A DNA stretch of 64,000 bases from assembly GCF_028736155.1 (NCBI RefSeq), contig NZ_CP117879.1, positions 1,240,001 through 1,304,000 on the forward strand, in the 5' to 3' direction. A program made the translations under genes and the position numbers. Of this stretch, positions 44,841-63,930 are shown one piece after another (position 1 is the first letter of the stretch; the number at the start of each line of letters is the position of its first letter). This DNA is from Flavobacterium sp. KACC 22763 (GTDB lineage: Bacteria > Bacteroidota > Bacteroidia > Flavobacteriales > Flavobacteriaceae). A model generated the notes under the pieces. It had not been told where the DNA came from. It saw only the letters and a list, made by a program, of their open reading frames with translations, and did not search any database.

Positions 44841-44900
44841 ATGATTTCAATTCAATTACATCATCATCATTTACATTATTGCTCTCAAGCGATGTGTTAA
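44841..44900 (+). CDS. hisL: His operon leader peptide
   Basis: A 19-codon frame encoding MISIQLHHHHLHYCSQAMC. Four consecutive CAT codons (44859-44870) and a fifth at 44874-44876 make it a histidine sensor: five His in 19 residues. It follows the his promoter and precedes a strong terminator hairpin and hisG. Its sequence is unrelated to the enterobacterial HisL in detail but the principle is the same. The symbol is by analogy. Confidence 0.88.
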   Translation: MISIQLHHHHLHYCSQAMC

Positions 44901-44960
44901 TGATATGCGTGTAAATCATCATATTTTAAAACCCGTTTGAGTACATCAAACGGGTTTTTT
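44884..44960 (+). terminator. Histidine operon transcription attenuator
   Basis: The terminator is a 13-bp perfect stem (44928-44940 with 44946-44958), a 5-base loop and a T-run. The alternative is CTCAAGCG (44884-44891) pairing with CGTTTGAG (44934-44941), 8 bp with one G-U, which would destroy the left arm. A ribosome waiting at the His codons leaves 44884-44891 free; one at the stop codon covers it. Confidence 0.85.
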
Positions 44961-56203: not shown

Positions 56204-57748
56204 TTAGCGATTATTCAATTTCGCTTTCTCCTTAATAATATCAGCAATTTTTCTGTTTTCAATTTTACTTTCCAACCATGAAATAATATCTAAGTATAAG
56301 AAAGCTCTTTTTTCGTATGTGTTCTTTTCTAGCTCTACAAAACGAGTGTGCATTTTCTTGAATTCCTTTTTAATATCAGCAGGGTAGAAGTTATTTAAAT
56401 TTCTTAAAAACTTGATGATTTCTTTTTGGACTTCATGCAAGTCGTTCATTTTCAATAAGAACTTATAAGTGCTTTTTAAATGATTCTCCAAATAATAATC
56501 TTTCCCAAGCTCATAATGTGCAATAAGCGACAATAATCTCGCAAAACACATTAAATCTTCGCGCATTGTCAAGTTTTTATTGTTGATGATTTTATCCAGA
56601 TAATTGATGCACTCATTATATTTTTCGTTTCCGAAATAAATAGAAGCAAACTTATAGAAGAATAACATTTCGTGATGTTCGTCTAAATGTTCGCTGTGAA
56701 GTTTCAGTTTTTCTAGAATTTCAGGAATCAGATATTCGCTTTCTGCAAAAGTACCTTCTAAAATATGAAGATTTAACTTGTTGTTATAAACGTAAAGAAA
56801 TGACAAAGAGGCAATATTATCATTTGCAGGAAATTTAGGATCTGTAATGGTTTCTTCCAGAAGATTTAGGTATTTCTTGAAATTCGATGTATATTTTAGC
56901 ATATAAAGCGATTCTAAGAAATAGTGATTTCCTTTTAAGAAAAATACAGGATTCAGATAAATCATATTTGGATTATCATAAAAAAGCTGCACCCATTTAT
57001 AGGCAAATTTGTAGCTCGCCAAAAAATCTTGTACTAAAAAGCTTCGCCAAAGATTGGCATTGTAAAACCAGTATTTTTCGCGGAAACCAAACTTGCTCTC
57101 ATCAAGTTTAGAAATATGCTTATTGAAGTAATCATCAATATATCTGTATTCTTCATCATTTTTTACGTAACCTGTTTTTAGCATGATTCCGTATAGCTGA
57201 AGCGATAAATTAGACAATTTGCTTGAAATTGTATTTCTGTAATTTAATTCTTTGGCTTGAATAACCAATTCGTCAGCACGGCCTTGAATACTTCGTGTAA
57301 TATATTGCGATTCGATTAATTTTTCGAATTCTACAATTTCATACGCCATATATTTTTCATCATTCTCAAGAGCCTGCTGTTTTGTTTTGTCCAATATTTT
57401 TAAACTCTGCTTGTATAATCCTTTATTATAAAGAATAACAGCAAAATCCATTTGTTCACGTAGCTGATAACGAATATTCTGGCTGGGAATATTTAATCTT
57501 ATACTCACTAAGATCTGTTTGTATAAGTATGATTTTAAGTTAGATAACTGTACTTTTTGGATAACACCACTCTTCAGAATGAGTTTTTCATCGTAAACTT
57601 CAGATTTATCTAAAATATTGAATAATTCGATAAATTTTGTGTTTGAACTCGTCTCTAATCGGCTTGCAAAAATTTTAAACTGCCTTTTTTCTGATTTTGA
57701 AAGTGATTTGATTAGAACAAATAAGAAATCTTTTTGATGGTTAGCCAT
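56204..57748 (-). CDS. Conserved helical-repeat (TPR-like) protein
   Basis: A 514-residue cytoplasmic protein, almost wholly alpha-helical, with repeated helix pairs such as AVILYNKGLYKQSLKILDKT and FFYKFASIYFGNEKYNECIN resembling TPRs. The N-terminus MANHQKDFLFVLIKSLSKSE and KRQFKIFASRLETSSNTKFI is conserved in Bacteroidetes as far as I remember. No signal peptide or catalytic motif is visible. It is divergent from leuA with 149 bases between. Confidence 0.75.
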   Translation of the reverse strand: MANHQKDFLFVLIKSLSKSEKRQFKIFASRLETSSNTKFIELFNILDKSEVYDEKLILKSGVIQKVQLSNLKSYLYKQILVSIRLNIPSQNIRYQLREQMDFAVILYNKGLYKQSLKILDKTKQQALENDEKYMAYEIVEFEKLIESQYITRSIQGRADELVIQAKELNYRNTISSKLSNLSLQLYGIMLKTGYVKNDEEYRYIDDYFNKHISKLDESKFGFREKYWFYNANLWRSFLVQDFLASYKFAYKWVQLFYDNPNMIYLNPVFFLKGNHYFLESLYMLKYTSNFKKYLNLLEETITDPKFPANDNIASLSFLYVYNNKLNLHILEGTFAESEYLIPEILEKLKLHSEHLDEHHEMLFFYKFASIYFGNEKYNECINYLDKIINNKNLTMREDLMCFARLLSLIAHYELGKDYYLENHLKSTYKFLLKMNDLHEVQKEIIKFLRNLNNFYPADIKKEFKKMHTRFVELEKNTYEKRAFLYLDIISWLESKIENRKIADIIKEKAKLNNR

Positions 57749-57841
57749 TGTAAAAAATAATAATATAACTTATTGATTATAAGTAAGTTAATGAAGTATA
57801 AATCGTTTTATAAACAGTATAATTTCATTAAAATGAATTTC

Positions 57842-57856
57842 GTACTGTAATAGTAC
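57842..57856. promoter_or_regulatory. Operator-like inverted repeat upstream of leuA
   Basis: GTACT-GTAAT-AGTAC, a perfect 5-bp dyad with a 5-base centre, ends four bases before the -7 box of leuA. A repressor bound there would block the promoter; the protein is unknown. Confidence 0.5.
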
Positions 57857-57860
57857 AATA

Positions 57861-57868
57861 TATATTTG
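57861..57868 (+). promoter_or_regulatory. Candidate -7 element for leuA
   Basis: TATATTTG, exact TAnnTTTG, 29 bases before the leuA start. No TTG occurs in the expected region, consistent with dependence on an activator. Confidence 0.55.
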
Positions 57869-57882
57869 TTATCAAGATGTGA

Positions 57883-59070
<1,188 letters not shown>

Positions 59071-59120: not shown

Positions 59121-60239
59121 ATGAATTTAAAAATTGCAGTTTTACCAGGAGACGGAATTGGACCTGAAGTAATATTACAGGCTAAGAAAGCTTTGTACGC
59201 CATTGGCGAAGTGTATAATCATGAATTTGTTTTTGAAGAAGCGCTGATGGGAGCGGTTGCTATCGATAAAACAGGAAATCCGTTGCCGGAACAAACTCTA
59301 AATCTGTGCTTAAATACAGATGCAGTTTTGCTTGGCGCAATTGGAGATCCTAAGTATGATAACAACCCAAATGCAAAGGTTCGTCCGGAACAAGGATTGT
59401 TGAAACTGCGAAAAGAATTAGGCTTGTTTGCTAATATTCGCCCTATAAAACCTTATAAAGCCTTAATTGAATCTTCTCCTTTAAAAAGAGAAATTATTGA
59501 AGGAGCAGATTTCACCATTTTTAGAGAATTAACTGGTGGAGCTTATTTTGGAACAAAAACACTTAATGAAGAAGGAACACATGCTTCGGATTTATGTGAA
59601 TATTCAGAAGAAGAAATTACCAGAATTGCACATTTAGCTTTTCAATCGGCACAAAAACGACGCAAAAAGCTAACGATGGTAGACAAAGCAAATGTTTTGG
59701 AGACTTCAAGATTGTGGAGAAAAGTAGTTCAGAAAGTGAGCGAAAATTATCCAGATGTTAAGCTTGATTTCTTATTTGTCGATAATGCAGCAATGCAGTT
59801 AATCTTAAATCCAAAACAGTTTGATGTCATTTTGACTGAAAATTTGTTCGGAGATATTTTATCTGATGAAGCAAGTGTGATTACAGGATCTATTGGTTTA
59901 TTGCCATCGGTATCTTTAGGAGAGAAAAACGCTTTGTTTGAGCCAATTCACGGATCATATCCGCAGGCAAAAGGAAAAAACATTGCCAATCCGATTGCTT
60001 CGATTTTAGCGGCGGCGCTTTTATTAGAGCATTTTGGATTAACGAAAGAAGCTCATGTAATCTATAAAGCGGTAGAAAAAGCAATTGAATACAAAGTAGT
60101 TACAGTTGATTTGAAACCAGATTCAAAATTCGGAACTAACGAAGTAGGAGAGTTCGTTTCTAATTTTATTTTCAGCAAAGACGATTTGCTGTATTTTAAT
60201 AATGATAATGTAAGTATTGGACAATCTACAATTGTTTAA
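59121..60239 (+). CDS. leuB: 3-isopropylmalate dehydrogenase
   Basis: A 372-residue NAD-dependent oxidative decarboxylase of leucine synthesis. IAVLPGDGIGPEVILQAKKA opens, VLLGAIGDPKYDNNPNAKVR and EQGLLKLRKELGLFANIRPI follow, with FRELTGGAYFGTKTL, and the cofactor loop SVSLGEKNALFEPIHGSYPQ and AKGKNIANPIASILAA. It is 50 bases after leuA. The leuCD isomerase genes are not in the window. Confidence 0.97.
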   Translation: MNLKIAVLPGDGIGPEVILQAKKALYAIGEVYNHEFVFEEALMGAVAIDKTGNPLPEQTLNLCLNTDAVLLGAIGDPKYDNNPNAKVRPEQGLLKLRKELGLFANIRPIKPYKALIESSPLKREIIEGADFTIFRELTGGAYFGTKTLNEEGTHASDLCEYSEEEITRIAHLAFQSAQKRRKKLTMVDKANVLETSRLWRKVVQKVSENYPDVKLDFLFVDNAAMQLILNPKQFDVILTENLFGDILSDEASVITGSIGLLPSVSLGEKNALFEPIHGSYPQAKGKNIANPIASILAAALLLEHFGLTKEAHVIYKAVEKAIEYKVVTVDLKPDSKFGTNEVGEFVSNFIFSKDDLLYFNNDNVSIGQSTIV

Positions 60240-60321: not shown

Positions 60322-60329
60322 TACTTTTG
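60322..60329 (+). promoter_or_regulatory. Candidate -7 element of the ilv operon
   Basis: TACTTTTG, exact TAnnTTTG, 17 bases before the leader ATG; no TTG at the right distance upstream. Confidence 0.55.
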
Positions 60330-60345
60330 TAACACTAAAAAATAA

Positions 60346-60423
60346 ATGATGCAAATCTCAATTATTATTACTTCTGTCGTTGTTGTCAATGTGATTCACA
60401 CATCTGCATCGGGAATGTTATAA
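60346..60423 (+). CDS. ilvL: Ilv operon leader peptide
   Basis: A 25-codon frame, MMQ then ISIIITSVVVVNVIH, ending TSASGML. It has five Ile and five Val codons in a window of 14 residues and only one Leu, so it should sense isoleucine and valine. It begins shortly after a promoter box and precedes a terminator hairpin and ilvD. Either ATG (60346 or 60349) may be used. The symbol is by analogy. Confidence 0.87.
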   Translation: MMQISIIITSVVVVNVIHTSASGML

Positions 60424-60478
60424 ATATAATTGAAAGACTATATTACAAACCTTCCAAATACTGGAAGGTTTTTTTTTT
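60412..60478 (+). terminator. Ilv operon transcription attenuator
   Basis: The terminator is a perfect 10-bp stem (60447-60456 with 60462-60471), 5-base loop and a run of eight or more T. GGAATGTT (60412-60419), in the last leader codons, can pair with AACCTTCC (60448-60455) at 7 of 8 positions, an antiterminator. A ribosome at the leader stop would cover it; one stalled at Ile/Val codons would not. Confidence 0.82.
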
Positions 60479-60509: not shown

Positions 60510-62183
60510 ATGGAATTAAATAAGTACAGCAAGACCATCACACAAGATCAAACACAGCCTGCGGCACAAGCTATGTTGTACGGAATTGGTTTAACTGAAG
60601 AAGATTTAAAAAAAGCACAAGTTGGTATTGTGAGCATGGGTTACGATGGTAACACTTGTAACATGCACTTGAACGATTTAGCAAAAGATGTTAAAAAAGG
60701 TGTTTGGGATGCAGATCTTGTCGGACTTATTTTTAATACCATTGGTGTCAGTGACGGTATTTCTAACGGAACTGAAGGTATGCGTTACTCACTAGTTTCT
60801 CGTGATGTAATTGCAGATTCTATCGAAACTGTTGCTGGAGCGCAATGGTATGATAGTATTATTGCAATTCCTGGTTGCGACAAAAATATGCCTGGAGCAT
60901 TAATCGCAATGGGAAGATTAAACCGTCCGTCAATGATGATCTACGGTGGTTCTATTCACTCTGGAAAATGGAAAGGAGAATCTCTTAATATTGTTTCTGC
61001 TTTTGAAGCTTTAGGAAAAAAAGTAAAAGGGGAAATCACTCCAGAAGATTTTAAAGGTGTTATCCAAAATGCTTGTCCGGGAGCAGGTGCTTGTGGTGGT
61101 ATGTATACTGCAAATACAATGTCTTCTGCAATTGAAGCATTAGGAATGAGTTTGCCTTATAGTTCTTCTAACCCTGCTTTAAGTCAGGAAAAAAGAGACG
61201 AATGTCTTGAAGCTGGAAAAGCAATCAAAATATTATTAGAAAAAGATATTAAGCCAAGAGATATTATGACTCGTAAGGCTTTCGAAAACGCTATTACAAT
61301 TGTAGCCGTTTTAGGAGGTTCTACAAATGCGGTTATGCACTTAATCGCAATGGCTCACTCAGTTGGAATCACAATTACTTTAGATGATTTTCAAGCAATT
61401 AATGATAGAACACCAGTATTGGCAGACATGAAACCAAGTGGTAAGTACATGATGGAAGACATTCACGAAGTGGGAGGTATTCCAGCAGTTATGAAATACT
61501 TATTGAAAGTTGGACTTATTCACGGAGATTGTTTAACTGTAACAGGAAAAACAGTGGCTGAAAATTTAGCTTCAACTCCAGATTTGCAAGACGGACAAGA
61601 AGTTATTCATGAAATTCAAAAAGCATTAAAACCAACAGGGAATATCCAAGTTTTATACGGAAATCTTGCATCTGAAGGTGCTGTAGCAAAAATCAGCGGA
61701 AAAGAAGGAGAATATTTCGAAGGTCCAGCTGTTGTATTTGAAGGTGAATTTGAAGTAATTCCAGGTCTTCAAGCCGGAAAAATTAAACCAGGTAATGTAG
61801 TCGTCATTAGAGGTTGTGGGCCAAAAGGTGGTCCGGGAATGCCTGAAATGCTGAAGCCTACATCTGCGATTATTGGAGCTGGATTAGGAAGCAGTTGTGC
61901 ACTAATCACAGACGGTAGATTCTCGGGCGGTTCGCACGGTTTCGTGGTAGGTCACGTTACACCAGAAGCATATGATGGTGGTGGTATTGCACTAGTAAAA
62001 GATGGAGATTTAATTGCCATCGATGCTGTGAAAAATACAATCGACCTGAAGATATCTGACGAAGAATTTGCAGCAAGAAAAGCAGCTTGGGTTAAGCCAG
62101 CTTTAAAAGTTGACAGAGGGGTTTTACTTAAATACGCTAAGTCGGTTTCTAGTGCATCTACAGGATGTGTAACCGATAATTAA
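60510..62183 (+). CDS. ilvD: Dihydroxy-acid dehydratase
   Basis: A 557-residue iron-sulfur enzyme producing the 2-keto acids of isoleucine and valine. Cluster and substrate residues lie in [54 protein letters not shown] and [20 protein letters not shown], with [18 protein letters not shown]. It is the first structural gene after the ilv attenuator. Confidence 0.97.
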
Positions 62184-62241: not shown

Positions 62242-63930
62242 ATGAAAATATCAGGGGCAGAAGCCGTTATAAGATGTTTATTAGCAGAAGGAGTAGATTT
62301 AATTTATGGTTATCCAGGTGGAGCTATAATGCCAGTTTACGACGAATTATATAAATTTCAAGATCAATTGCACCATGTTTTAGTACGTCACGAACAAGGT
62401 GCAACGCATGCAGCTCAAGGTTATGCAAGAGCTACAGGAAAAGTTGGGGTAGCAATTGCTACTTCTGGTCCAGGAGCTACAAACTTAGTAACTGGTATTG
62501 CAGATGCTCAAATTGATTCAACTCCATTGGTTTGTATTACAGGTCAAGTTGGAAGACACTTATTAGGGTCTGATGCATTTCAGGAAACAGATATTATCGG
62601 AATTTCAACTCCGGTAACAAAATGGAATTTTCAGGTAACTGAAGCGTCTCAAATTCCTGAAATCATTGCAAAAGCATTTTATATTGCTCGTTCTGGACGC
62701 CCAGGGCCTGTATTGGTTGATATTACTAAAAATGCTCAGTTTGATGAGTTAGATTTTAGTTATGAAAAATGTACAGGAATTAGAAGCTATGTTCCGGTTC
62801 CGAAATTAAATTTAGATAAAGTTGCTGAGGCTGCAGCTTTAATTAATAGTGCAAAAAAACCGTTTATTGTTTTTGGACAAGGAGTTATTTTGGGTCAGGC
62901 AGAAGCTGAGTTTAAAGCAGTTGTTGAAAAATCTGGAATTCCAGCAGCATGGACAATTTTAGGTTTATCAGCATTGCCGACAGACCATCCTTTGAATGTT
63001 GGTATGCTTGGAATGCACGGAAATTATGCGCCAAATTTACTAACAAACGAATGTGATGTTTTAATTGCTTTCGGAATGCGTTTTGACGACCGTGTTACAG
63101 GAAAATTAAGCACTTATGCTAAACAGGCAAAAGTAGTTCACTTCGAAATTGATCCTGCAGAGGTTGATAAAAACGTGAAAACAGAAATTGCTGTTTTAGG
63201 AGATGTAAAAGAATCTTTAGCTGCTTTACTACCATTATTAGATGCAAAATCTCATGATGCTTGGCATAATGAATTCAAAGAATTAAGCAAAGTTGAATTT
63301 GATTCCGTAATAAAAGAAGAATTAAATCCAACAAACGGTAAAGGAATTTCGATGGGAGAAACTATCGAAATGATCAACAAACATTCAAAAGGAGACGCAA
63401 TCATTGTTTCAGATGTTGGTCAGCATCAAATGTTTGCTTGCCGTTATGCTAAATTCAATTCGACAAAAAGTAATATTACTTCGGGAGGTTTAGGAACTAT
63501 GGGATTCGCATTGCCTGCTGCAATTGGAGCAAAAATGGGAAAACCAGAACGTGAAGTAGTAGCGATTATTGGTGATGGAGGCTTCCAGATGACAATTCAG
63601 GAGCTTGGAACAATCTTCCAAACAGAAGTTCCAGTAAAGATTGTGGTTTTAAACAACGAATTCTTAGGAATGGTTCGCCAATGGCAAGAATTATTCTTTG
63701 ATAACAGATATGCTTCAACAAAAATGATAAATCCAAATTTCATTGCCATTGCTGAAGGATACCATATCAAATCTAAAAAAGTTACACAACGTGAAGATTT
63801 AGACGCGGCGGTCGCTGAGATGCTGGCTTCAAAAGATTCATATTTCTTAGAAGTTGTAGTCGAAAAAGAAAACAACGTTTTCCCAATGATTCCAACAGGA
63901 GCTTGTGTATCAGAAATTAGATTAAGTTAA
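62242..63930 (+). CDS. ilvB: Acetolactate synthase large subunit, biosynthetic
   Basis: A 562-residue ThDP- and FAD-dependent enzyme making acetolactate and acetohydroxybutyrate. VDLIYGYPGGAIMPVYDEL and VLVRHEQGATHAAQGYARAT (with the ThDP-activating Glu) open the Pyr domain. The ThDP motif is VAIIGDGGFQMTIQELGTIF with VVLNNEFLGMVRQWQELFF. Family features favour the valine-inhibitable biosynthetic form over catabolic AlsS. The regulatory subunit ilvN should follow beyond 64000. Confidence 0.96.
   Translation: MKISGAEAVIRCLLAEGVDLIYGYPGGAIMPVYDELYKFQDQLHHVLVRHEQGATHAAQGYARATGKVGVAIATSGPGATNLVTGIADAQIDSTPLVCITGQVGRHLLGSDAFQETDIIGISTPVTKWNFQVTEASQIPEIIAKAFYIARSGRPGPVLVDITKNAQFDELDFSYEKCTGIRSYVPVPKLNLDKVAEAAALINSAKKPFIVFGQGVILGQAEAEFKAVVEKSGIPAAWTILGLSALPTDHPLNVGMLGMHGNYAPNLLTNECDVLIAFGMRFDDRVTGKLSTYAKQAKVVHFEIDPAEVDKNVKTEIAVLGDVKESLAALLPLLDAKSHDAWHNEFKELSKVEFDSVIKEELNPTNGKGISMGETIEMINKHSKGDAIIVSDVGQHQMFACRYAKFNSTKSNITSGGLGTMGFALPAAIGAKMGKPEREVVAIIGDGGFQMTIQELGTIFQTEVPVKIVVLNNEFLGMVRQWQELFFDNRYASTKMINPNFIAIAEGYHIKSKKVTQREDLDAAVAEMLASKDSYFLEVVVEKENNVFPMIPTGACVSEIRLS

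Follow-up and report, generated by a model that had tools for sequence, protein, structure and literature searches.

What occupies the 270-nt gap between leuB and ilvD in Flavobacterium sp. KACC 22763, and does it control the genes that follow? In the window (the whole 64,000-nt stretch of DNA that was analysed), the genes named by NCBIfam run leuA - leuB - leader cassette - ilvD - ilvB, all on the plus strand, and the IlvD encoded here shares 99% identity with the IlvD of Flavobacterium sp. IB48. From an ORF, its codons, a promoter-box match, a terminator, an antiterminator and an in-leader hairpin, all established together with their conservation by sequence and comparison, we conclude that the cassette very probably controls the ilvD-ilvB operon as a ribosome-mediated transcription attenuator, a reading to which we give a probability of about 0.9. 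Ribosome-mediated attenuation is little described in this bacterial group, and the cassette offers an account of Ile/Val synthesis control where no Rfam leader or T-box family matches. The features of the locus are as follows.

57861-57868, plus strand: box TATATTTG before leuA, a TAnnTTTG match
57898-59070, plus strand: leuA, upstream of the cassette (NCBIfam)
59121-60239, plus strand: leuB, upstream of the cassette (NCBIfam)
60322-60329, plus strand: promoter-box match TACTTTTG, which fits the -7 box TAnnTTTG
60349-60423, plus strand: leader ORF of 24 codons, MQISIIITSVVVVNVIHTSASGML; an alternative start at 60346 gives 25 codons; stop at 60421-60423
60355-60396, plus strand: regulatory-codon stretch, with five Ile (ATC, four ATT) and five Val codons (two GTC, two GTT, one GTG)
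60389-60403, plus strand: in-leader hairpin ATGTG-ATTCA-CACAT, found de novo by RNAalifold from 37 sequences; possible pause hairpin
60412-60419, plus strand: antiterminator 5' arm GGAATGTT, within the last leader codons
60423-60428 / 60439-60444, plus strand: antiterminator upper stem AATATA / TATATT, 91.4% of cells paired
60447-60478, plus strand: intrinsic terminator, stem 60447-60456 / 60462-60471, T-run to 60478
60448-60455, plus strand: AACCTTCC, serving both as antiterminator 3' arm and as terminator 5' arm
60510-62183, plus strand: ilvD, dihydroxy-acid dehydratase (NCBIfam TIGR00110)
62242-63930, plus strand: ilvB, acetolactate synthase large subunit (NCBIfam TIGR00118)

The leader frame and its distribution in Flavobacterium

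The leuB-ilvD gap holds the box, the leader ORF and the terminator. The sequence-only reading of this DNA had described a 25-codon frame with five Ile and five Val codons between a promoter box and a terminator hairpin just before ilvD. Its codon count and its placement were confirmed: the frame 60346-60423 translates to MMQISIIITSVVVVNVIHTSASGML, with five Ile codons, five Val codons and a single Leu codon at the last sense position, and it lies between the box at 60322-60329 and the hairpin at 60447-60471. Its length needed amendment, since an ORF does run from 60346, but the conserved leader start is the ATG at 60349 (24 codons), and a further ATG directly before it occurs in only 10 of 45 leaders. 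Two defining features of the attenuator class are therefore present, namely a short codon-rich leader ORF and an intrinsic terminator before the first structural gene.

Among 48 Flavobacterium leaders, 44 have a TAnnTTTG box no more than 60 nt ahead of the leader ATG, and in 43 of those 44 the box starts 24-31 nt before the ATG. TAnnTTTG is given as the -7 promoter box consensus in the available excerpts of PMC9723704, and the conserved match upstream of the leader is a predicted promoter of the cassette's own. Control specific to Ile and Val, as had been proposed from the scarcity of Leu codons, suits the window, where the leader has one Leu codon and where leuA has its own TAnnTTTG match TATATTTG, though no leader in the 150 nt before the gene. 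It does not hold across the genus, as the leaders of five loci (L106, L108, L116, L138, L144) have 3-4 Leu codons.

When the 270-nt gap was shuffled 3000 times, a frame 20-26 codons long that starts with ATG and contains 10 or more Ile/Val codons arose once. Scanning both strands of the window in 566 tiles found 12 Ile/Val/Leu-rich frames beside a terminator-like hairpin, among which the ilvD site alone combines an ATG start and a TAnnTTTG box. Across the genus, 150 Flavobacterium genomes were examined and 80 had an IlvD-like match (E <= 1e-50). The upstream regions of 77 matches from 76 genomes (L081-L157) were taken; left out were four genomes whose matches were fragmented or sat at a contig edge (G003, G014, G074, G147), as well as second matches of 41-44% identity. 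A leader with a terminator precedes ilvD in 48 of the 77 regions, compared with 0 of 231 shuffled 450-nt upstream regions. The cassette is thus common, but not universal, before Flavobacterium ilvD. Upstream of the cassette, 45 of the 48 loci have leuB and three (L144, L150, L154) have no leuB match.

The other 29 regions, which have no leader directly before ilvD, comprise 14 with leuB, 3 with leuA, and 11 with an ilvE-like gene upstream, and 1 other. The ilvE-like query was an ORF of L012 that scores as a branched-chain aminotransferase; in 10 regions its match stops 6-41 nt short of ilvD, in one 227 nt short. Up to 8 kb upstream of these 29 loci (less at contig ends) was scanned with a looser filter that had no control of its own; by this filter, 8 of the 11 ilvE-type regions carry a leader ahead of ilvE, some 1 kb from ilvD, two of the eight being weak (L177, whose start is TTG, and L184, whose stop lies 8 nt from the stem). 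The same scan, over the same distance and with the same filter, found no convincing leader further upstream in the 17 regions with leuB or leuA. The single match among them, in L174, has no box and was not credited.

These 17 loci have leuB (14) or leuA (3) close before ilvD and no cassette (L107, L113, L114, L117-L119, L121-L124, L126, L127, L129, L130, L136, L139, L141). Absence of the terminator in close relatives had been named beforehand as evidence against an attenuator; it is seen in a minority, the 14 leuB-ilvD and 3 leuA-ilvD junctions without a leader, and 48 of 77 regions keep both leader and terminator. In the leu-ilv arrangement the cassette seems to be gained or lost whole, rather than its parts decaying, and loci with and without it between leuB and ilvD form natural pairs for comparison.

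That the hairpin is a mere leuAB terminator, and the Ile/Val-rich frame a product of chance in AT-rich DNA, is extremely unlikely. Lying 3' of leuB, the hairpin would indeed end leuAB transcripts as well, but such a terminator leaves unexplained the conservation of the Ile/Val codons, the promoter box, the frame-keeping gaps and the matching antiterminator. Similar leaders also occur without a leuB match upstream, in the three loci named above, and before ilvE-like genes, and shuffled sequence yields no leader with a terminator.

Pairing in the leader RNA and the proposed course of attenuation

The terminator hairpin at 60447-60471 has 10 pairs and a loop of 5, followed by the T-run. The pairing of the leader end with the terminator, previously put at 7 of 8 positions, was borne out: GGAATGTT at 60412-60419 pairs with AACCTTCC at 60448-60455 in 7 of 8, and the pairing additionally has an upper stem, 60423-60428 with 60439-60444. 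This upper stem and the in-leader hairpin at 60389-60403 are both absent from the sequence-only reading.

An alignment of ilvD upstream regions from relatives, the check suggested with that reading, found the regulatory codons, the terminator and the antiterminator conserved and co-varying. For the structures, the 48 leaders minus the three without leuB gave 45, or 37 distinct sequences. RNAalifold predicted two stems from these 37, the terminator and the in-leader hairpin, with 5 of 10 pairs changed on both sides. Paired cells amount to 95.8% in the terminator and 95.7% in the in-leader hairpin, where double changes occur in 3 of 5 pairs, and double-changed cells in the hairpin and terminator together number 30, where shuffling gives 9.1 on average. 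The antiterminator lower stem has 78.0% of cells paired on fixed columns, which disallow bulges; with bulges allowed, at least 7 pairs form in 34 of 37 sequences, at least 6 in 35 of 37 and 4 in two (L132, L137). On inspection of the alignment, a TTCC arm goes with GGAA in the leader and a TCCC arm with GGGA, and many leaders have GGGAA, which fits both. Gaps within the ORF come in multiples of three across the 37 sequences, except for one base in L109 that creates an earlier stop. In L109, L128, L132 and L137 the stop precedes the antiterminator arm, the arm starting 2-3 nt past the stop's first base. A further pairing in the minimum-energy fold, between TCAATTAT at the leader start and ATAATTGA after the stop, was rejected as a protector stem because it is lost in several relatives (by inspection) and is not predicted by RNAalifold.

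From this arrangement we infer the following course of events. RNA polymerase would start just 3' of TACTTTTG, and the leader ORF would therefore lie near the RNA 5' end. With ample charged Ile- and Val-tRNA, a ribosome translating the leader would reach the stop at 60421 and cover GGAATGTT (60412-60419), no antiterminator would form, and the terminator at 60447-60471 would halt transcription before ilvD. Should Ile-tRNA or Val-tRNA run low, the ribosome would stall at the codons in 60355-60396 and leave GGAATGTT free to pair with AACCTTCC, aided by the AATATA/TATATT upper stem, so that the terminator would be pre-empted and ilvDB transcribed in response to the shortage. A ribosome covers about 12-15 nt beyond its A-site; with this reach, a ribosome positioned at any one of the ten Ile/Val codons would leave 60412-60419 free and one at the stop would cover it. 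The third feature of the attenuator class, a mutually exclusive antiterminator, is accordingly present in the cassette, its pairing and position being computed and its coverage by the ribosome deduced from the footprint size (PMC4833913, available excerpts).

The window antiterminator has an energy of -6.3 kcal/mol as a duplex and -6.9 kcal/mol with the upper stem folded, and the terminator about -13 kcal/mol. With the antiterminator so much the weaker of the two, antitermination has to depend on kinetics. The hairpin at 60389-60403 may slow the polymerase and let the ribosome catch up; enterobacterial leaders have a pause hairpin, and by analogy the in-leader hairpin is a putative one.

Ile/Val leaders beyond the genus

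The wider set was the best 80 of 593 IlvD loci, 11 of them titled Flavobacterium, with most others Bacteroidota of several classes and four titled as other groups; it overlaps the genus set because a few loci are common to both (e.g. L006 / L116). A strict filter (at least 6 Ile/Val, an ATG or GTG start, the stop 15-40 nt before the stem, antiterminators ignored) found 55 leaders, spread over 49 of the 80 loci. These 49 comprise 10 of the 11 titled Flavobacterium and 39 of the other 69. Under the same filter, 2 leaders appeared on the antisense strand, 0 in shuffled and 0 in downstream DNA. No leader was found within the upstream DNA examined in 31 of the 80. Of the 39 non-Flavobacterium loci, 12 have their nearest leader no more than 230 nt from ilvD and 27 have it 0.93-1.4 kb upstream, which would leave room for an intervening ilvE, the presence of ilvE having been checked in Flavobacterium alone.

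Although the filter ignored antiterminators, the leader tails pair with their own terminators at a mean of -12.1 kcal/mol, compared with -8.6 (sd 0.32) when permuted, and none of 20,000 permutations was as low. The own terminator has a median rank of 3 of 55, and the antiterminator arms of the 55 leaders lie around the stop codon, between 23 nt before and 19 nt after that codon's first base. The in-leader hairpin was rejected as a phylum-wide feature: against mononucleotide shuffles its mean z is -0.49 in 46 leaders (of which L052 is a Flavobacterium) versus -1.35 in 9 Flavobacterium leaders, and it is strong only in L055, L059, L070, L031, L033 and L035.

Outside the genus, sequence and stems differ and the Ile/Val runs persist. 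This bears on a leader RNA that would bind a metabolite or tRNA, as a riboswitch or T-box with an incidental ORF. Conserved stems do exist, as such an element would have, but in the window no Rfam family scores as high as its gathering threshold (the best sub-threshold match is Phe_leader, 31.8 versus a gathering score of 55 bits), and the conserved signal is a coding frame with its codons, which stays when the stems change; we consider a binding element hardly credible. Alternatively, the peptide itself could act in the ribosome tunnel as a nascent-chain arrest sensor through its C-terminal half, rather than through tRNA shortage. Among the 29 leaders of 24 aa, V13 is found in 28, V15 in 29 and T18 in 28, a near-invariance that would suit an arrest peptide; V15 and T18 lie where the in-leader hairpin forms, however, so RNA pairing can explain the constraint, and by inspection this C-terminal half is not common to most leaders outside the genus. 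Arrest by the peptide is thus very unlikely, and attenuation governed by tRNA shortage remains the preferred reading.

We lean slightly towards the view that ilv attenuation is an ancestral, phylum-wide control in Bacteroidota, free of Shine-Dalgarno sequences, with ORFs near the RNA 5' end and, in part of the phylum, an in-leader hairpin that sets polymerase pausing. If this is true, the first ribosome follows RNA polymerase closely in Bacteroidota; our literature search found no measurement of such coupling for the phylum. Readthrough of the ilvD (or hisG) terminator versus tRNA charging would provide a natural reporter of transcription-translation coupling in these bacteria. In the available excerpts of PMC13323073, Bacteroidota are not named among the phyla classed as runaway transcription, which agrees with attenuation working in Flavobacterium.

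Two side observations concern the same upstream regions. Two Ile/Val leaders and two terminators stand before the same ilv genes in L031, L033, L035, L055, L061 and L070, and in L175 and L183, which looks like a double application of attenuation. A loosely alignable stretch, CATTGTAA ... TTGATTNTCAG ... TTGA, occurs in the last 200 nt before ilvD in 15 loci (L031, L035, L054, L056, L058, L059, L066, L067, L070, L071, L073-L075, L077, L079), not kept in all, and also before leuA in the window (57741-57900); a TAnnTTTG-like box follows it in several loci, and it is perhaps an operator common to ilv and leu genes.

Similar leaders and known attenuators

Attenuation of this kind is already known, because leader-peptide attenuation was earlier proposed for F. 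psychrophilum. The available excerpts of PMC9723704 describe strong clues for it upstream of amino-acid operons, and the likeness extends to the genus, the kind of mechanism and the position before amino-acid biosynthesis operons; the difference is that its main text, as far as available, does not contain 'ilv'. Leader-like ORFs of Bacteroides thetaiotaomicron are mentioned in a part of PMC7366714, and the available parts of PMC8305728 and PMC7858274 hold nothing on Bacteroidota attenuators. Among the matches listed in our literature search there was no ilv attenuator in Bacteroidota; given a probable earlier comparative study (Lopatovskaya 2010), we do not claim its absence from print. In another phylum, the Corynebacterium ilvBNC attenuator (PMC10272879, PMC11857589, in excerpts) likewise has a short ORF, or hairpins, ahead of an ilv operon; it differs in gene order, and the likeness is one of description.

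Within the window itself, a second leader precedes hisG.

44799: box TATATTTG of the His leader, a TAnnTTTG match
44841-44900: His leader MISIQLHHHHLHYCSQAMC, before hisG (45012)
44928-44958: His-leader terminator, ahead of hisG

Of the 30 best-scoring genus loci, 29 have the His leader before hisG, that of the window among them; the 30 were taken from 42 genomes with hisG, out of 61 searched. Its CTCAAGCG, or a close variant, pairs with CGTTTGAG of the terminator, and its C-terminal half HYCSQAMC is strongly conserved. The His leader resembles the ilv leader in being short, in having a box match, a terminator and an antiterminator within its last codons, and in its place before a biosynthetic operon, and differs in its codon specificity, which is for His. 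A Thr/Ile-rich leader, MKSNSIKYQSTIITTQTGVAIAATIITTTTTTTP, was also seen in L213 (minus strand, about 1620-1440; about 585.8 kb in the genome) before a gene whose translation reads as an aspartokinase; no convincing terminator was found at this leader, the hairpin called there overlapping the leader end.

The enterobacterial ilvGMEDA and ilvBN operons have the classical ribosome-mediated attenuators. The Flavobacterium cassette shares with them a short leader with codons for the product amino acids, an antiterminator over the leader end and an intrinsic terminator before the first gene. It differs in that its leader is nearly without Leu codons, no Shine-Dalgarno sequence is seen in it and the distance from box to ATG is short. 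Unlike the enterobacterial structures, the Flavobacterium antiterminator is one extended hairpin, and the in-leader hairpin has no arm in common with it.
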